In this document: positions 1 through 5,254 of the stretch, piece after piece
How positions within the stretch are numbered: the stretch's first letter is position 1
How the letters are laid out: each line of letters begins with the position of its first letter
NCBI GenBank assembly: GCA_029777145.1
Contig: JAKOSS010000212.1
Span: 1 to 6,329 of the forward strand
Direction of reading: 5' to 3'
Length of the DNA: 6,329 nucleotides
Source of the DNA: Acidobacteriota bacterium
GTDB lineage: Bacteria > Acidobacteriota > Blastocatellia > Pyrinomonadales > Pyrinomonadaceae
Program-made: the position numbers and the translations under genes
The notes under the pieces: model-generated
Seen by the model: only the letters and a program-made list of their open reading frames with translations
Told to the model about the DNA's origin: nothing
Database searches by the model: none

Positions 1-677
1 CGAACGCCCAACAAATCTACACACCCTCGTCGCGGATGGAGACGCTTGTCGATCGCCTGCGGGACGAAGCGGACGCACTCGCCGCCGCCGCCGCAGACAC
101 CGTCAAACGCGGAGACGGATCCGATCAGGCGACGCTCGACGAGACGTTCTTTGCCGCACAATTCGGCGGTTCGGCGCGACTTCTGCGGGATCTCGTGCGC
201 GGCCAACGGCCGGTCGTCGAGATCCGGAGATCGATCGCGATCATCGGCGAATTGTCGCGACGCACGCCGGCGGGTTCCGCGTTCGCGGATCGCTGGCAAA
301 CTATCCGCGGCATCGTCGCGGACATTTCCGCGGAGTTCGGCAGTGATTCCGCCGATCGCCCGAATCCGGAGAACCGTCCGGTCGCCGGTCGGGTCTATTG
401 GCGCGGGATGGTTGATGACAAGCTGCAGCTGCTGATCAAGGGAAATCAGATCGAATACCGGACGGTTTCGGGTCGAACCATGCCGAACGGCACATTCAGT
501 TTCACGACTCGCATGCCGGAGTCGGAGGTTGTTGTCGGGGTCACGAAATCGAAAGGCCGCGGCACGGTCCGGGTCGTCGAACAACCGACCGCGTCAAATG
601 ATTTCACTGCCGTGGTCGAAATCTACGACGACGGCGGCGGCGCGAAGGAATATGAGTTGGAAATCTATTGGAAGTGA
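1..677 (+). CDS. Exported-type protein of unknown function, 5' end cut by window edge
   Basis: I do not recognise a named family. The reading frame is open from the window edge (first full codon at 3) to TGA at 675-677, giving 224 visible residues. An ATG at 36 is possible but probably internal: the upstream codons read NAQQIYTPSS, which resembles the residues around a signal-peptidase cleavage site, so the signal peptide and true start likely lie outside the window. Counted from that ATG, residues 1-100 are rich in Ala, Arg, Asp and Leu and look helical. A linker rich in Asp, Pro and Asn follows (about 101-117). Residues 118-213 alternate hydrophobic and polar residues as in a beta-sandwich, starting near VYWRGMVDD and ending ELEIYWK. 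Similar helical-plus-beta proteins seem familiar from Acidobacteriota, but that is recollection. It converges on purQ. Its stop codon lies inside a GTGAGCG repeat unit. Confidence 0.72.
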   Translation, partial: NAQQIYTPSSRMETLVDRLRDEADALAAAAADTVKRGDGSDQATLDETFFAAQFGGSARLLRDLVRGQRPVVEIRRSIAIIGELSRRTPAGSAFADRWQTIRGIVADISAEFGSDSADRPNPENRPVAGRVYWRGMVDDKLQLLIKGNQIEYRTVSGRTMPNGTFSFTTRMPESEVVVGVTKSKGRGTVRVVEQPTASNDFTAVVEIYDDGGGAKEYELEIYWK

Positions 678-700
678 GCGATGTCGGTGAGCGGTGAGCG
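674..700 (+). repeat. GTGAGCG heptad units at the end of the first gene
   Basis: Units occur at 674-680, 687-693 and 694-700. The last two are in tandem and the first is one base out of 7-bp phase. The TGA stop of the exported-type gene (675-677) is inside the first unit. The orientation is opposite to the larger array at 744-855, so the two together form an inverted arrangement; for example GTGAGCGG at 687-694 is complementary to CCGCTCAC at 848-855. Confidence 0.7.
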
Positions 701-743
701 GCTGAATTCCGATGATTTGACTGTCTATCAATTCCGAAGTAGC

Positions 744-855
744 TGATAACTGAAAGCTTATAGCGGATAACTGCTTACTGCTCACGGCTCACTGCTTACT
801 GCTTACGGCTTACCGCTTACGGCTCACTGCTCACGGCTTACCACTGCCCGCTCAC
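744..855 (-). repeat. Phase-locked heptad array GTRAGCN, 16 units, running into the purQ stop codon
   Basis: On the plus strand the units read NGCTYAC (minus strand GTRAGCN). From 772 to 855 there are twelve consecutive 7-bp units: TGCTTAC, TGCTCAC, GGCTCAC, TGCTTAC, TGCTTAC, GGCTTAC, CGCTTAC, GGCTCAC, TGCTCAC, GGCTTAC, one degenerate CACTGCC, and CGCTCAC. Four more degenerate units precede them in the same phase at 744-771: TGATAAC, TGAAAGC, TTATAGC and GGATAAC. The last unit (849-855) contains the purQ stop codon (852-854). The minus strand of nearly every clear unit carries TGA or TAA. No gene is visible in this spacer. Confidence 0.9.
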
Positions 856-1544
856 AGTCCAATCGCTTTCGTCAGCGACCGGAAGATCTCGCGGCCGTCG
901 TTCGATCCGAGCAATTCTTCGCAGGCGCGTTCCGGATGCGGCATCATACCAAGGACGTTTCCGGTTTCGTTGCAAATGCCCGCGATGTTCGAACGCGCTC
1001 CGTTCGGGTTGGCTTCTTCGGTCACCTCGCCGTTCTCGTCGCAATACCTGAAGACGATCTGACCGTTCTCTTCCAGCTGGTTGAAAGTTTCGTCATCGCA
1101 GACGTAGTTGCCTTCGGCATGCGCGATCGGGATCGAGAGCACGTCGCCGGAATCGAGCTCGGTCGTGAACGGCGTGCCGCTGTTTTCGACGCGCAGATTG
1201 ACGTGCTTGCAAATGAAATGAAGATCGCGGTTGCGGATCAGCGCTCCGGGAAGCAATCCCGATTCGCACAAGATCTGAAAGCCGTTGCAGATGCCGAAAA
1301 CGAACTTGCCGGACGCGGCGAATTCCTTGACCGCGCCCATTACCGGCGAGAACTTCGCCAGCGCGCCGCAACGAAGATAGTCGCCGTATGAAAATCCGCC
1401 GGGCACGATAACGGCGTCGTAACCGCTGAGATCGGTCTCACGATGCCAAACAAAATCGACCGGCTGCCCGACATGCTTCGAGATCACGTGATAGGCGTCG
1501 TGATCGCAATTTGAACCTGGGAAAACAAGGACTCCGAATTTCAT
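852..1544 (-). CDS. purQ: Phosphoribosylformylglycinamidine (FGAM) synthase, glutaminase subunit PurQ
   Basis: PurQ hydrolyses glutamine and supplies ammonia to PurL, which with ATP turns FGAR into FGAM in cytoplasmic de novo purine synthesis. The 230-residue length is normal for the stand-alone bacterial subunit. The fold is a class I glutamine amidotransferase: the N-terminus [14 protein letters not shown] is typical, [15 protein letters not shown] (about 47-61) is conserved in PurQ, the nucleophile is Cys86 in GICNGFQ, and the other catalytic residues are His203 and Glu205 in MPHPERA. The start at 1544 gives the canonical N-terminus. There is no Shine-Dalgarno sequence: only six bases separate the ATG from a GGTCAGT array, so translation must start without a purine-rich site or by another route. 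The gene lies 177 bp downstream of purS on the same strand. Its stop codon is inside another heptad array. PurL is not in the window. Confidence 0.97.
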
Positions 1545-1550
1545 ATTCTT

Positions 1551-1634
1551 GGTCAGTGGTCAGTGGTCAGTGGTCAGTGGTCAGTGGTCAGTGGTCAGTG
1601 GTCAGTGGTCAGTGGTCAGTGGTCAGTGGTCAGA
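1551..1634 (+). repeat. GGTCAGT tandem array (VNTR-like), 11 perfect copies plus 6 bases
   Basis: Eleven identical GGTCAGT units run from 1551 to 1627, followed by GGTCAG and then A at 1634. This is the most uniform array in the window, with no internal mismatch, which points to recent expansion or active homogenisation. It starts six bases upstream of the purQ start codon and lies in the purS-purQ leader if the two genes are cotranscribed. The plus strand has no stop codon in any frame; the minus strand (ACTGACC) has TGA in every unit. Confidence 0.97.
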
Positions 1635-1657
1635 ATATCTACGATTTTACAGCCTTC

Positions 1658-1732
1658 TGTCTACTGCTCACGGCCACTGCTCACTGCTTACTGCTCACGG
1701 CCACTGCTCACGGCTCACTGCTTACCGCTCAC
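1658..1732 (-). repeat. Second heptad array of the purS-purQ spacer, entering the purS 3' end
   Basis: Plus-strand units are TGTCTAC, TGCTCAC, GGCCAC (6 bp), TGCTCAC, TGCTTAC, TGCTCAC, GGCCAC (6 bp), TGCTCAC, GGCTCAC, TGCTTAC and CGCTCAC. A 20-bp segment is perfectly repeated at 1665-1684 and 1692-1711, giving a 27-bp higher-order period. The unit at 1719-1725 contains the purS stop codon (1722-1724), and the unit at 1726-1732 is coding sequence for the last purS residues. It belongs to the same family as the array at 744-855. Confidence 0.9.
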
Positions 1733-1970
1733 TGACCTCCACCCGATAATCTTCGATCACCGGATTGGCGAGGATGTCTTTCGCGATCTGCTCGGCAACG
1801 CGGCGCGCTTCGTCCGGCGACAACGACTCATCGAGCGCCATCTCGAAATACTTTCCCTGACGAACGTCATCGACGCCGGGCACGCCCAAAAGCTCGATCG
1901 AATGATGGATCGCCTTTCCTTGCGGATCGAGAACGCTCGGCTTCAAAGTCACATAAACCTTTGCTTTCAT
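1722..1970 (-). CDS. purS: FGAM synthase subunit PurS
   Basis: PurS is the small dimeric subunit that bridges PurQ and PurL in the multi-subunit FGAM synthase of many bacteria and archaea. The 82-residue length is typical. The N-terminal strand MKAKVYVTLKPSVLDPQGKA, with the PSVLDPQG signature (about 12-19), the middle VRQGKYFE (37-44), and the C-terminal ILANPVIEDYRVEV are all as expected. The last residues (SER) and the TAA stop are encoded by heptad units of the adjoining array, so the C-terminus may have been reshaped by the repeat. A clear Shine-Dalgarno sequence is lacking; GGGAA lies too far upstream to be convincing. A good sigma-70-like promoter sits about 30 bp upstream. purQ follows on the same strand after a 177-bp repeat-filled gap, so cotranscription is likely but translational coupling is not. 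Confidence 0.95.
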   Translation of the reverse strand: MKAKVYVTLKPSVLDPQGKAIHHSIELLGVPGVDDVRQGKYFEMALDESLSPDEARRVAEQIAKDILANPVIEDYRVEVSER

Positions 1971-1999
1971 AACTGTTGAAATTTCCCGGCGGAAGCTAA

Positions 2000-2028
2000 A
2001 TTCTTGCGCAAATTCTTGTTAATGGCAA
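2000..2028 (-). promoter_or_regulatory. Candidate sigma-70-like promoter of purS-purQ
   Basis: On the minus strand, TTGCCA (2023-2028, five of six consensus bases) is followed after 17 bp by AAGAAT (2000-2005, four of six). A transcript would start near 1993 and have a leader of about 23 bases before the purS ATG at 1970. The position in the only divergent spacer of the window supports it. There is no experimental support. Confidence 0.5.
2004..2011. promoter_or_regulatory. Palindrome TTGCGCAA overlapping the candidate purS -10 box
   Basis: The 8-bp perfect palindrome sits inside a direct repeat of AAATTCTTG (1998-2006 and 2010-2018, 12 bp apart). GCTAAATTCT also recurs at 1995-2004 and 2038-2047, and CGGAAGC (1990-1996) is inverted as GCTTCCG (2061-2067). 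Such clustered symmetry between the promoter boxes could be an operator. It does not match the Bacillus PurBox, and I see no convincing Escherichia-type PurR site. The role is inferred. Confidence 0.3.
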
Positions 2029-2096
2029 CGTCCTTATGCTAAATTCTCGATACGAGTTTGGCTTCCGTTCTACGATTATTCGCTGATTAAGATAAA

Positions 2097-2104
2097 AAGG
2101 AGAT
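2097..2104 (+). promoter_or_regulatory. Shine-Dalgarno sequence of the DUF4870-type gene
   Basis: AAGGAGAT is the only strong Shine-Dalgarno-like sequence seen before a gene start in this window. It ends 12 bases before the ATG at 2117, somewhat farther than usual, but no alternative ATG, GTG or TTG start lies in frame between them. Confidence 0.6.
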
Positions 2105-2116
2105 AAATCACTTATT

Positions 2117-2503
2117 ATGCAAAACAACGTCGGTAAAACCGCGCTTGGTTTGGACATTAACGTCGGATCGCTGCTGTGCTATTTGCCCGTCTGTGCTATT
2201 AGTTTGATCTACAGCATCATCGTGATCGTGACCGACAAGACCAACAAACAGGTCAGATTCCACGCGTTTCAATCGCTGTTGATGACGGCCGCTTACGTGG
2301 TTGTGATCATGGCCGTTGCGATCGTCGGAGGCGGAATCACCGCGGCGACCGGATCGTCGATCATCGGGTTGCTCGTTTCGCTGCTCTATTTTGCCGTTAT
2401 CGTCGGGTTCTTGATCCTGATGATCGTCGGTTGCGTCAAGGGCTACCAGGGCGGATCGTACAAACTTCCGGTCGTCGGCGACATGGCCGAGAAATGGTCC
2501 TAA
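2117..2503 (+). CDS. Small Tic20/DUF4870-type integral membrane protein
   Basis: The protein has 128 residues and three probable membrane segments at about 16-38, 51-76 and 81-106. Between the first two is the motif KTNKQVRFHAFQSL (41-54), and the C-terminus reads KGYQGGSYKLPVVGDMAEKW (108-127). These motifs mark the DUF4870/Tic20-like family of bacterial membrane proteins, whose function is not established; the resemblance to the chloroplast import component Tic20 is remote. No catalytic residues are evident. The gene starts after a Shine-Dalgarno sequence and is the only complete plus-strand gene here, placed between purS (divergent) and purB (convergent). The purine context is probably accidental, because it interrupts the minus-strand cluster and shares no biochemistry with it. 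Confidence 0.85.
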   Translation: MQNNVGKTALGLDINVGSLLCYLPVCAISLIYSIIVIVTDKTNKQVRFHAFQSLLMTAAYVVVIMAVAIVGGGITAATGSSIIGLLVSLLYFAVIVGFLILMIVGCVKGYQGGSYKLPVVGDMAEKWS

Positions 2504-2516
2504 TTCCAAATTCCGT
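2503..2516 (+). repeat. Two heptad units filling the convergent spacer (tentative)
   Basis: ATTCCAA (2503-2509) and ATTCCGT (2510-2516) occupy the whole gap between the DUF4870-type stop (2501-2503) and the purB stop (2517-2519). Two units alone would prove nothing, but they resemble the ATCCGAA/ATCCAAA units beside asd. Confidence 0.35.
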
Positions 2517-3809
2517 TTAGCGAAACACTCGGTCGAATACGGTTTCGACGTTCCGCAGATAGTGTTTCAGATCGAAGACGCGGGCAATTTCGTCAGGTGA
2601 AAGCCGAGACGAAATGTCCGCGTCTCTCATTATCAGCTCGCGGTATTCCCCGCCTTCGTCCCAAACCTTCATCGCATTGCGCTGCGTCCATGCATAGGCA
2701 TCCTCGCGTGAGACGCCTTTTTGGGTCAGCGCGAGCAGCAACTGCCCGCTGAAAACCAACCCGCGCGTCAGATTGAGATTACGGAGCATGTTTTCGGGAT
2801 AAACGACGAGCGTGTCGAGCAGCGACGTCGTTTTCGCGAGGATGTAATCGAGCGCGGCGCTCGAATCCGGCAGGACGATGCGTTCGGCCGACGAATGCGA
2901 AATGTCGCGTTCGTGCCAAAGCGCGACATTCTCCATGCCGACGACGGCGTTCGCGCGGATCGTCCGCGCCATACCGCATATGCGTTCCGAAAGGATCGGA
3001 TTGCGCTTGTGCGGCATCGCGCTCGATCCCTTCTGGCCGGTCTTGAACTTCTCCTGCGCCTCGCGGACCTCGGTCCGCTGCCAATGACGCACCTGCAGCG
3101 CGATCTTCTCGAGCGACGAAGCGATGATCCCGAGCGTGCTGAGATACTCGGCGTAGCGGTCGCGCTGGATGACCTGCGTCGAGACGTCCGCGGCTTTGAT
3201 CCCGAGCCTTTCGCAGACGCGTTCCTCGACCGACGGCGCGAGGTGCGCAAAGGCGCCGACCGCACCGGAGATCTTTCCGACGGCAACCGCTTCGCGGGCC
3301 CGCTCTAGACGCGCGCGGTTGCGCTCGAACTCCGAAAACCAGAGCGCCCAGCAGAGTCCGAACGACGTCGGTTCGGCGTGGATCCCGTGCGTCCGGCCGA
3401 TCTGCGGCGTGTCCTTGAACTCGAACGCGCGGCGCTTCAGCACGTCGAGCAACGCGTCGATCTTCGGCAAAAGAATGTCGCAGGAATCACGCAAAAGAAG
3501 CGCGTTCGCCGTGTCAACTACGTCCGACGACGTCAGTCCATAATGGACGAAACGCGCCGAAGGCCCGATGTTCTCGGCGAGATTGGTCGTGAAGGCGATG
3601 ACGTCGTGGTCGGTTGTCTTCTCGATCTCGTTGATCCGTTCGACCGTGAAGGCGGCTTTCGACTTGATCTCCGCAAGCGCATCGACCGGGATCACGCCGT
3701 CCTCGGCATGCACTTCGCAGACAGCGATCTCGACATCGAGCCACTTCTGAAACTTATTGCGGAGCGACCAGAGTTCGCCCATTTCGGGCAACGTGTAGCG
3801 TTCGATCAT
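2517..3809 (-). CDS. purB: Adenylosuccinate lyase PurB
   Basis: PurB eliminates fumarate from SAICAR to give AICAR (step 8 of IMP synthesis) and from adenylosuccinate to give AMP. It acts in the cytoplasm as a homotetramer of the fumarase/aspartase superfamily. The 430-residue length is that of the shorter bacterial form. The superfamily signature GSSAMPHKRNP is at 261-271 with the probable catalytic Ser262 and Lys268. Other expected active-site residues are His68 (TTDHDV), His89 (RFVHYGLTSSD), His141 (GRTHGIHAEPTSFG) and Glu275; this numbering agrees with my memory of the Bacillus enzyme. The start MIERYTLPEM is canonical. AAAAAGG directly touches the ATG, too close for a normal Shine-Dalgarno, and further upstream lies a TTCAARA heptad array. 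The gene converges on the DUF4870-type gene with a 13-nt gap and lies 404 bp downstream of asd. Confidence 0.97.
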   Translation of the reverse strand: MIERYTLPEMGELWSLRNKFQKWLDVEIAVCEVHAEDGVIPVDALAEIKSKAAFTVERINEIEKTTDHDVIAFTTNLAENIGPSARFVHYGLTSSDVVDTANALLLRDSCDILLPKIDALLDVLKRRAFEFKDTPQIGRTHGIHAEPTSFGLCWALWFSEFERNRARLERAREAVAVGKISGAVGAFAHLAPSVEERVCERLGIKAADVSTQVIQRDRYAEYLSTLGIIASSLEKIALQVRHWQRTEVREAQEKFKTGQKGSSAMPHKRNPILSERICGMARTIRANAVVGMENVALWHERDISHSSAERIVLPDSSAALDYILAKTTSLLDTLVVYPENMLRNLNLTRGLVFSGQLLLALTQKGVSREDAYAWTQRNAMKVWDEGGEYRELIMRDADISSRLSPDEIARVFDLKHYLRNVETVFDRVFR

Positions 3810-3814
3810 CCTTT

Positions 3815-3849
3815 TTCAAAATTCAAGATTCAAAGTTCAAGATCCAAGG
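3815..3849 (+). repeat. TTCAARA heptad array just upstream of purB
   Basis: Five units in phase: TTCAAAA, TTCAAGA, TTCAAAG, TTCAAGA and TCCAAGG. The array begins five bases from the purB start codon and so occupies its ribosome-binding region. On the minus (purB) strand the units carry TGA. Confidence 0.8.
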
Positions 3850-4062
3850 AGCCCGTCGGAAAATTCACCGAACTCTGATCCGACTGCTCGCTAGTTGGCG
3901 AATCACCCGCCGCGGTCGCCTTTTCGCGACGATTCGGTTACTTCGCGGTCGGATCTTCTTTCTTTGACCGCAAATTCACGCGAAAAACCGCGAAAGAGGT
4001 GACGTCGCCAGGGCAAATGACTTGAATGCTCCGGGAGCGCGATTATTCCAACATCCTCGAAA
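3850..4062. other. Gene-free middle of the purB-asd spacer
   Basis: I find no convincing gene, tRNA or other RNA here. Small symmetric elements are present: GTCGC-CTTTTC-GCGAC (3915-3930), CGCGGTCG repeated directly at 3911-3918 and 3944-3951, CGCG-AAAAAC-CGCG (3979-3992), and GCTCCGGGAGC (4028-4038). A minus-strand AATAAT at 4042-4047 could be a -10 box for purB, but no good -35 box accompanies it. The purB promoter should lie in this spacer if purB is not cotranscribed with asd. Confidence 0.5.
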
Positions 4063-4132
4063 GTTCAGAATTCGAAGTTCAAGATTCAAAGTTCAAGATT
4101 CAATATTCAAAGTTCAAAATTCAAGATTCAAG
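4063..4132 (+). repeat. RTTCAAR heptad array, ten units
   Basis: Ten consecutive 7-bp units without a phase break: GTTCAGA, ATTCGAA, GTTCAAG, ATTCAAA, GTTCAAG, ATTCAAT, ATTCAAA, GTTCAAA, ATTCAAG, ATTCAAG. It is the same family as the array beside purB at 3815-3849, with about 210 bp of non-repeat DNA between them. Confidence 0.93.
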
Positions 4133-4179
4133 AATGCGATCCTTTTGAATTTTGAATATTTTGAATCTTGAATTTTGAA
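4113..4179. terminator. 19-bp perfect inverted repeat downstream of asd, possible terminator or processing hairpin
   Basis: The 19 bases at 4113-4131 are the exact reverse complement of 4161-4179, with a 29-base spacer. An RNA from either strand could fold into a long AU-rich stem, extended by G-U pairs on one strand. It lies 35 bp past the asd stop codon on the asd strand, which would suit a 3'-end hairpin. There is no plain U-tract and the stem is weak in GC, so an intrinsic terminator is uncertain; it may simply follow from two oppositely oriented arrays. Confidence 0.4.
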
Positions 4180-4180
4180 T
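4143..4180 (-). repeat. Inverted TTCAA heptad array, five units
   Basis: On the plus strand TTGAA recurs at 4145, 4152, 4161, 4168 and 4175, that is with spacings of 7, 9, 7 and 7. It is the same heptad family as 4063-4132 in opposite orientation, 10 bases away, and supplies the right arm of the 19-bp inverted repeat. Confidence 0.85.
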
Positions 4181-4184
4181 CAAC

Positions 4185-4219
4185 ATCCGAATTCCCAAAT
4201 CCGAAATCCAAAATCAGAT
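4185..4219 (+). repeat. ATCCRAA heptad array reaching the asd stop codon
   Basis: Units ATCCGAA, TTCCCAA, ATCCGAA and ATCCAAA (4185-4212) are in 7-bp phase; a fifth, degenerate ATCAGAT (4213-4219), contains the asd stop codon (4214-4216). Confidence 0.75.
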
Positions 4220-5254
4220 CATTCCCTTGCTGGCCAAAAGTTCGGCGTTGAGTACGGCCGAACCGGCGGCGCCGCGGACCGTATTGTGCGACAGCGAGAC
4301 AAACCTGTAATCGAAGATATTGTCAGGGAAGAGCCGTCCAACCGTGATCGTCATTCCGTCGCCGGCGTCCCGGTCGAGCCGCGGCTGCGGACGCGAGGGC
4401 TCTTCGAGCACCTCGATGAACTGCTTCGGCGACGAATGCAGATCGAGAGACGGGAACGACTTCATCGCCTCGATGACGTCTTCGAGCGTCGCCGTCTCGC
4501 GCAGATTGACACGTACCGAGGCCGTGTGGCCGTCGATCACGTGAACGCGAAAACACTGCGCCGATACGCTGAAATCCGCCTTTTCGATCGCGCCGTTCGT
4601 CAGTTTTCCGAGGATCTTCTGCGCCTCGGTCTCGACCTTCGGTTCCTCGCCGGCAATGTACGGCACGACGTTGTCGGTGATGTCGAGCGACGGAACTCCC
4701 GGATAACCGGCACCCGAGATCGCCTGGAGCGTCGTCACGACGACCGATTCGATCCCGAATTTCCGATGCAGCGCGGCAAGCGGCGGCGCGAAACTGACGA
4801 CCGCGCAATTCGGATTGGTGACGATAAACCCCTTTCCGAAGCCTCGTTTGACTCGCTGGGTCTCGATCAACGCGATGTGATCGGGATTTATCTCGGCGAT
4901 CAGCAACGGGATGTCCTCGTCCATCCGGAACGACGACGAATTGCTGATCACGGGATAACCCGCGCGGGCGAACGCCTCTTCGGTTTCGCGCGCCACCGAC
5001 GACGGCAGGCTCGAGAAAACGAGGTCGCAGTCGAGCGGAGGTTCGATCGGCTGCACGACGATATTCTTGACGTTCTCGGGCATCCCGCCCGGCAGTTTCC
5101 ACGCACAGGCTTCAACAAACGTCTTGCCAGCCGACCGATCTGACGCGGCGAGCGCCGTGATCTCAAACTGCGGATGATGCTCGAGCAGTTGGCAGAAGCG
5201 CTGTCCGACGGTTCCCGTCGCACCCAGTATTCCGACTCTATATTTCTTCGCCAT
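4214..5254 (-). CDS. asd: Aspartate-semialdehyde dehydrogenase, archaeal/fungal-type
   Basis: Asd reduces L-aspartyl-4-phosphate to L-aspartate 4-semialdehyde with NADPH, the branch-point step to lysine/diaminopimelate, methionine and threonine. The 346-residue protein starts with the nucleotide-binding loop [13 protein letters not shown] (8-20). The active-site cysteine is Cys150 in [18 protein letters not shown] (177-187) and the C-terminal [11 protein letters not shown] are typical of the archaeal/fungal-like branch rather than the Escherichia coli Asd type. [10 protein letters not shown] (235-244) holds the likely active-site Arg236 and His243. The start at 5254 directly precedes the nucleotide-binding domain. 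No Shine-Dalgarno is present; a candidate promoter places the transcript start within a few bases of the ATG, suggesting a leaderless mRNA. The gene lies 73 bp downstream of the protease gene on the same strand. Its stop codon touches a heptad array. Confidence 0.95.

Follow-up and report, generated by a model that had tools for sequence, protein, structure and literature searches.

Inverted heptanucleotide arrays at gene junctions of an Acidobacteriota bacterium: probable gene-less copies of an element that carries IVP genes in related genomes

Heptamer arrays in the window

The window analysed here is a whole stretch of 6,329 nucleotides from an Acidobacteriota bacterium of the Pyrinomonadaceae (contig JAKOSS010000212.1), in which tandem arrays of 7-bp units lie between protein genes; its arrays are considered below together with genes for the 23S rRNA-intervening-sequence protein (IVP). 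The gene order is orf0 (+), purQ (-), purS (-), a small open reading frame (ORF) (+), purB (-), asd (-) and an M50-like gene (-), the last label being our own and based on weak RseP-like matches; a codon-trained gene caller, used for gene counts, recovers all seven. The nearest named relatives are metagenome-assembled genomes (MAGs) of Acidobacteriota/Pyrinomonadaceae, the best of them being locus L121, with an Asd 96% identical. An Rfam scan of the window gave zero matches.

Tandem Repeats Finder (TRF) reported period-7 rows at 674-701, 770-841, 1550-1633, 1663-1734, 3815-3848, 4060-4131, 4143-4180 and 4185-4215, the row at 1550-1633 containing 12.0 copies with a 100% match. In the pooled spacers base identity at lag 7 was 47.9%, compared with 24.8% in genes, and at lags other than multiples of 7 it stayed at about 21-28%. 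An earlier note on this DNA had named nine stretches with a common 7-bp period and differing units; the period-7 score of each was matched by only 0-2 of 1000 base shuffles, and the observation is thus borne out by TRF, lag identity and shuffling alike. The note had also described four of the six spacers as array-filled. Three of these stand (orf0/purQ, purS/purQ and asd/purB), while the fourth was left out of the array count: stretch 2503-2516 is 14 bp long, was chosen by eye and was matched by 1 of 1000 shuffles, and the 13-bp spacer 2504-2516 is below the length needed for judgement.

The three array-filled spacers are referred to as elements E1, E2 and E3 (Table 1). E1 extends from the orf0 stop codon (675-677) to the purQ stop codon (852-854); its arm complementarity of 10.5 lies just above the best of 300 shuffles (10.0) and under the cut of 14 used for relatives below, and its fold z is -2.3 on the plus and -1.7 on the minus strand. 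The GAGCRGT family of its first arm is also found in the purS/purQ hairpin of L121. At one end the E2 array stops 5-6 bases short of the purQ ATG; its other end overlaps the stop codon of purS. E2 folds at -73.6 kcal/mol (z -2.9), with an arm complementarity of 13.0 (best of 300 shuffles 8.5; also under the cut), and the units of its opposite arm are akin to, yet not the same as, the complement of GGTCAGT. By comparison, the fold z of the two array-free spacers was -1.0 and -0.2, and direct (non-inverted) scores of the window arms were 5-6.5.

E3 has an array at each outer end and an inner inverted pair with a loop of 10 bases (4133-4142); it folds at -141.5 kcal/mol (z -3.5), and the inverted score of the inner pair is 26.0, the best of 300 shuffles reaching 14.5. 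Its two outermost arrays are not partners of one another (score 5). The TTCAARN array at the outer end scores 20.5 with the inner TTTTGAA arm, as though elements were nested, and E3 is probably a nested compound. Its ATCCRAA array belongs to a family shared with GGATTTC..AAATCCG hairpins of another genome (G028). Positions 3850-4062 inside E3 form a unique stretch of about 210 bases that folds strongly and contains no IVP remnant.

Table 1. Host genes, elements and arms, by position in the window
Feature	Positions	Strand	Evidence
purQ, host gene	852..1544	-	NF002957 E 1.3e-104
purS, host gene	1722..1970	-	NF004630 E 5.3e-28
purB, host gene	2517..3809	-	TIGR00928 E 4.7e-163
asd (archaeal/EA type), host gene	4214..5254	-	TIGR00978 E 3.5e-129
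E1, gene-less hairpin joining the stops of convergent orf0 (+) and purQ (-)	674..855	.	
E1 first arm, GTGAGCG units (GAGCRGT family)	674..700	+	TRF, shuffles
E1 second arm, ACTGCTY/ACGGCTY units, inverted relative to first arm	744..855	+	TRF
E2, gene-less hairpin, purS stop (1722, -) to purQ start (1544, -)	1549..1734	.	
E2 arm, (GGTCAGT)12	1550..1634	+	TRF 12.0 copies, 100% match
E2 opposite arm, ACTGCTY/ACGGCTY units	1658..1734	+	TRF
E3, compound arrays, asd stop (4214, -) to purB start (3809, -)	3815..4219	.	
E3 outer array TTCAARN, 5 bases short of purB start codon	3815..3849	+	TRF
E3 inner first arm TTCAARN	4063..4132	+	TRF; automatic inverted-pair rule
E3 inner second arm TTTTGAA	4143..4180	+	TRF; automatic inverted-pair rule
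E3 outer array ATCCRAA, overlapping asd stop codon	4185..4219	+	TRF

Period, polarity and placement in related genomes

Arrays were counted in stretches of related genomes not selected for repeats, at a threshold score of at least 14 and with a first-order Markov control as background. In 172 kb of G004, the closest relative examined, there were 22 arrays of period 7, 4 of period 8 and 1 of period 9, none at periods 2-6 and 10-13, and the other counts were multiples of 7, 8 or 9. G011 yielded 35 period-7 arrays in 280 kb, G028 67 in 263 kb (with 15 at period 8 and 19 at 9), and G005 4 in 180 kb (with 7 at 21); the controls for all four genomes gave 0 arrays. Among 55 acidobacterial loci fetched via Asd, 31 period-7 arrays were found and at most 5 at any other period except 21 (6); 173 kb from 11 loci of other groups (Paenibacillus, Clostridia, Spirochaetes, an archaeon and others) contained no array of period 7. 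The sharp peak at 7 bp with many unit families that the earlier note had predicted was therefore seen in the sampled stretches, and the excess in G004 speaks against its refuting outcome, no excess of period 7, in these samples. The unit is not always 7 bp long: lengths of 8, 9 and 10 occur, and they track the IVP lineage, as described below.

Neighbouring arrays tend to be inverted relative to each other, in a fixed order. In 120 viral-database loci selected by an ACTG-family pattern, 71 neighbouring pairs were inverted and 36 direct; among the 71, CAGT came first in 57 and ACTG in none, the remaining 14 belonging to other families. Some of the IMG/VR "viral" contigs are rich in such arrays (at least 21, 17 and 9 matches in L043, L058 and L031) and are possibly host contigs. 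Across 32 whole genomes the pattern CAGT..CAGT-loop-ACTG..ACTG gave 178 matches (19 genomes) and the opposite order 4 (3 genomes); the 178 overlap, and G020 alone accounts for 97, so that 81 versus 4 remain without it. Stretches of G004, G011, G020 and G028, some of the G004 and all of the G020 ones chosen by pattern, contained 41 inverted and 2 direct pairs, of which a few share an array; the G005 stretches held no such pairs. Within the set of 41 the order was constant for each family (GATTT to AAATC, AGTC to GACT, CAGT to ACTG, TTCAA to TTGAA), and of 72 first arms 41 contained AG without CT and 1 the reverse. Stop-codon content was considered as a cause of this polarity; many first arms lack stops, yet the idea was dropped because families such as the GAGTCTT arms of G028 violate it, as judged by eye.

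Position is equally regular. Between co-directional genes 27 of 32 hairpins start -6 to +11 bases from a stop codon; others are flanked by convergent (4) or divergent (2) genes or are situated at an edge (2) or within a gene (1). In 49 of 59 cases a first-arm array lies in the half of the spacer next to the stop, and in 40 of 54 a second-arm array lies in the half next to the start, with arm classes derived from the motifs of the inverted pairs and 24 arrays unclassed. The window follows the same placement, E1 joining two stops, while E2 and E3 each extend from a stop to within 5-6 bases of a start. Gene-less hairpins were also seen in L263 (4878-4960, 6884-6954 and 12033-12104), each ending about 6 bases before an ATG and lying between genes of an apparent ribosomal-protein operon (gene names assigned by eye). 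Four hairpins of G028 (L169 15985-16100 and 18341-18449, L280 17765-17881, L288 13755-13869) have, by eye, a related loop of about 50 bases, as if whole elements had been copied.

IVP genes enclosed by heptamer arms

L121 is syntenic with the window at about 82-87% nucleotide identity and has hairpins in the same three spacers, with unit families exchanged: GGTCAGT arms stand in its orf0/purQ spacer and in the purS/purQ spacer of the window. When 30 purS/purQ junctions of relatives were compared, 11 were tight (spacer of at most 6 bases) and 4 passed the hairpin cut (L121, L129, L152 and L166); the L145 junction is also short-spaced, but its purS frame runs through the insert and it is not among the 11. 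In L151 and L166 an ORF, an IVP gene in both, lies between the heptamer arms of this junction, and it was this ORF that led us to the IVP family: that of L166 corresponds to PF05635, the 23S rRNA-intervening-sequence protein. PF05635 was matched by all six arm-enclosed proteins scanned, five of which also match bAvd below its cut-off. In the asd/purB spacer of L136 and L151 small genes have been inserted without obvious heptamer arms; these may resemble a BrnT-type toxin-antitoxin pair.

The association holds well beyond this junction. Of 32 genomes 29 have a TIGR02436 match, and of 14 control genomes none. The cut of 14, set after a first look, was reached by the inverted flank similarity of 62 of 71 IVP loci (72 were taken, mostly the best-scoring of 242 matches, one of them without a flank) versus 4 of 218 control genes (80-220 residues, from 4 genomes, with slightly differing flank windows). 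The period of these 62 loci was 7 in 39, 9 in 8, 8 in 4, 10 in 2 and unclear in 9. IVP elements are placed much as the gene-less hairpins are: of 57 placed, 51 have co-directional neighbours that share the strand of IVP, 5 have convergent and 1 has divergent neighbours, and the distance to the stop is at most 13 bases in 44 of 61 and that to the start 0-23 in 39 of 53. Unit families of the window serve as IVP arms in G004, namely TTCAAGA (L318) and GGTCAGT/GGTCGGT (L358). Partial IVP matches in G004 contigs C402 and C68 (L373 and L374; profile 52-106 and 2-54) are possibly decaying copies. No IVP match was found in the 120 ACTG-pattern viral-database loci.

The same arrangement occurs in other phyla. 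Among 72,556 plasmid records there were 29 IVP matches, 23 of them cyanobacterial by genus, and in all 12 loci fetched (11 from cyanobacteria, 1 from Gemmatimonadota) IVP has inverted arms scoring at least 14, such as TAGGGAG/CTCCCTA in Nostoc edaphicum and CAGGGAA/TTCCCTG in Nostoc C052; in two plasmids IVP is oriented opposite to both neighbours. Three cyanobacterial plasmids (L376, L379 and L382) carry IVP elements within operons of clustered regularly interspaced short palindromic repeats (CRISPR), in the order cas6/IVP/cas4 in Anabaena sp. 90 and Pseudanabaena galeata and cas10/IVP/cmr3 in Picosynechococcus. In Chloroflexota IVP was present in 44 of 121 genomes, and 16 of 30 loci passed the inverted cut, 12 of these with period 7; in Bacillota it was present in 27 of 149 genomes.

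Arm units and IVP vary together. The mean distance between units was 1.44 for IVPs more than 70% identical, 2.16 at 50-70% and 3.2-3.35 for the rest (39 period-7 loci; Mantel rho -0.20, a strength reached by 0 of 2000 permutations). A tree of 53 IVPs requires 6 changes of unit length, compared with at least 11 (mean 13.5) in 1000 label shuffles. Units of 8, 9 or 10 bp are found in 14 rows, 13 of them within a single IVP clade of 21. Common descent of gene and arms would give such a correlation, as would a protein that reads its unit.

Interpretation and significance

We conclude, with a probability of about 0.72, that the three array-filled spacers of the window hold copies, lacking the gene and similar to miniature inverted-repeat transposable elements (MITEs), of a compact selfish IVP element resembling the intervening sequences (IVSs) of rRNA. 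In the intact element a gene for IVP (S23, a four-helix-bundle protein) is preceded by an arm of tandem units of 7-10 bp and followed by a second arm of inverted units; its place is between a stop codon and the start that follows, or between convergent stops, where an RNA hairpin would be tolerated. Such elements would move, with IVP recognising its own tandem units and serving gene-less copies in trans; most likely it would bind several consecutive units of the hairpin and promote the spread of anything so armed. Xanthomonas IVP is described as a homopentameric ring (PMC4990558). The long RNA stem may be cut by RNase III, or the insert masked, as in rRNA intervening sequences, so that insertion between stop and start would do little harm, and slippage together with copying between arms may adjust copy number.

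Several observations weigh against this interpretation. In the window no IVP gene or remnant was found within the elements (best E 1.7), the arm scores of E1 and E2 are moderate and below 14, E3 is compound, and only its inner pair satisfies the automatic pair rule. Gene-less arrays far outnumber IVP genes (in G028, 255 arrays per Mb sampled versus 9 IVP matches in 7.4 Mb), and IVP arms preferentially matched gene-less arrays of their own genome in only 5 of 10 cases tested. The flank comparison is softened by the choice of loci, the late cut and the control windows; direct flank similarity of at least 14 occurs at 2 of 71 IVP, 2 of 12 plasmid and 4 of 30 Chloroflexota loci, and four matches of opposite polarity exist among the 32 genomes. 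By eye, the hairpins inspected show no clean target duplication, for which no systematic search was made, and no movement within a species was seen. Nor did the presence of IVP predict array density in Chloroflexota and Bacillota: stretches from IVP-rich Chloroflexota contained 1 period-7 array in 189 kb and those from IVP-positive Bacillota 3 in 183 kb, without inverted pairs in either, and IVP-free stretches of these phyla contained none in 118 and 179 kb, respectively. IVP alone thus does not yield gene-less copies, and lineage factors matter. Published descriptions add two further points: the TAACTGA sets of BOGUAY are direct, with one indirect (PMC4679880), and Nostoc G-rich repeats are rarely paired.

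An alternative that we regard as unlikely is that the hairpins are RNA signals selected by the host (terminators, or processing or coupling signals) which evolve by slippage, the IVP genes merely homing in on them. Starts at stop codons and ends often a few bases before start codons would suit such signals, as would the gene-less state of most copies and the finding that in 22 of 34 cases the two arms of a hairpin make a better pair together than with other hairpins of their family (Wilcoxon p 0.006). Many junctions of relatives, however, are without hairpins, hairpins occur inside an apparent ribosomal-protein operon, and unit length tracks the IVP tree, a pattern that would fit homing only if the unit is read by IVP.

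Slippage in replication, with a 7-bp preference set by the polymerase, was one of two mechanisms suggested by the earlier note; taken alone, with inversion and position as by-products of selection, it appears improbable as the main cause. The heptamer excess and the slippage hypothesis are already in print (PMC4692102), copy number differs between arms (as in the 12 perfect GGTCAGT units), and one-sided arrays exist. Slippage alone was nevertheless rejected because it does not explain inverted pairs of fixed polarity, starts at stop codons or the flanking of one gene family by the arms; the concentration of 8-10-bp units in one IVP clade also argues against it. It probably still alters copy number within arms.

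The note's second suggestion, a templating process, would take the form of RNA-templated repeat synthesis at breaks by a telomerase-like bacterial reverse transcriptase resembling DRT10. By our own reasoning, convergent polarity would be expected if repeats were added to the 3' end on either side of a break; DRT10 produces tandem-repeat DNA (PMC12632851), and IVP proteins, by their bAvd matches below cut-off, resemble Avd, the partner of a retroelement (PMC10053308). The arms, however, enclose unique loops, and RVT_1 (PF00078), which 4 of the 14 genomes searched possess, had no match in array-rich G004 and G011 (MAGs of unstated completeness); this scenario is accordingly very doubtful.

Least credible of all are repetitive extragenic palindromes (REPs) moved by a Y1 transposase (the REP/RAYT system), since Y1_Tnp genes do occur in all 14 genomes searched but 0 of 23 Y1_Tnp loci are bounded by heptamer arms, two having one period-7 array within about 500 bases. 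REPs too are short palindromes (PMC3733652) in many copies, but with other palindromes and another gene. Inverted flanks were present at 18 of the 23 loci, by eye REP or other palindromes, and many acidobacterial Y1 transposase genes (L456-L475) are flanked by REP-like palindromes such as CCACTAGC..GCTAGTGG.

The selfish IVP element has its closest known parallel in the IVSs of 23S rRNA in Coxiella and others, in which terminal inverted repeats form a stem around an S23p/IVP gene and which have been called selfish (PMC4990558). Stem-forming inverted ends around an IVP-family gene are likewise found in the elements of relatives, and the window arms are complementary above 300 shuffles in each case (E3 26.0, E2 13.0, E1 10.5; moderately so in E1 and E2). 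Unlike those IVSs, the elements described here lie between protein genes (orf0, purQ, purS, purB, asd) and not in a 23S helix, have arms built of tandem units of 7-10 bp and, in the window, lack an IVP gene.

Other heptamers resemble them as well. The nearest solved IVP structure, 2gsc, is annotated XCC0516, which we take to be a Xanthomonas campestris locus name. In Xanthomonas, GGGAATC heptamers studied as quadruplex-forming occur in convergent inverted pairs (70 in Xcc, 75 in Xac; PMC4692102), as do the heptamers here. Direct TAACTGA repeats are intergenic in Beggiatoaceae, cyanobacteria and Bacteroidetes, and in BOGUAY mostly lie close upstream of starts (PMC4679880). They share with our arrays the ACTGNYN unit family and the intergenic position, and exact TAACTGA units are common in G020; in the window ACTGACC units stand 5-6 bases before purQ, but as the arm of an inverted pair. 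Short tandemly repeated repetitive (STRR) heptanucleotides of filamentous cyanobacteria are reportedly the subject of work by Mazel et al. The window shares with such heptanucleotide simple sequence repeats (SSR/STRR), recorded for filamentous cyanobacteria in PMC4692102, tandem 7-bp spacer units of several families, and IVP genes of Nostoc, Calothrix and Anabaena plasmids lie between inverted, mostly heptameric arrays. These plasmid loci support the equivalence, left open in the earlier note, between the arrays of the window and the cyanobacterial ones.

The heptamer excess, the Xanthomonas convergent pairs, the TAACTGA repeats and the rRNA IVSs are thus already in print (PMC4692102, PMC4679880, PMC4990558). 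A published link between IVP genes and heptamer repeats was not recognised among the papers listed by our literature search, most subscription papers being beyond its reach; in the main text of PMC4679880 the terms "four helix", "S23" and "intervening" are absent.

Taken together, these findings suggest a selfish element as a source of a long-puzzling class of bacterial repeats. We give even odds to a wider proposal, in which IVPs would define a class of mobile elements for which no recombinase is known. Every lineage would read a tandem unit of 7-10 nt of its own, and hairpins built of these units would colonise the stop-to-start junctions of operons; this class would be the common source of cyanobacterial, Xanthomonas, Beggiatoaceae and other heptamers, with the rRNA IVS as its rRNA branch. 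Heptanucleotide repeats and the widespread genes annotated as "four helix bundle protein" are two poorly explained genome features. If they are indeed two halves of one element, both would be explained and many annotated orphan genes would gain context. "Why seven?" could then be put to the test on a single small protein family and the nucleic acid that it targets, and many operons would have selfish hairpins placed precisely between the stop codon of one gene and the start codon of the next, with a bearing on their expression.

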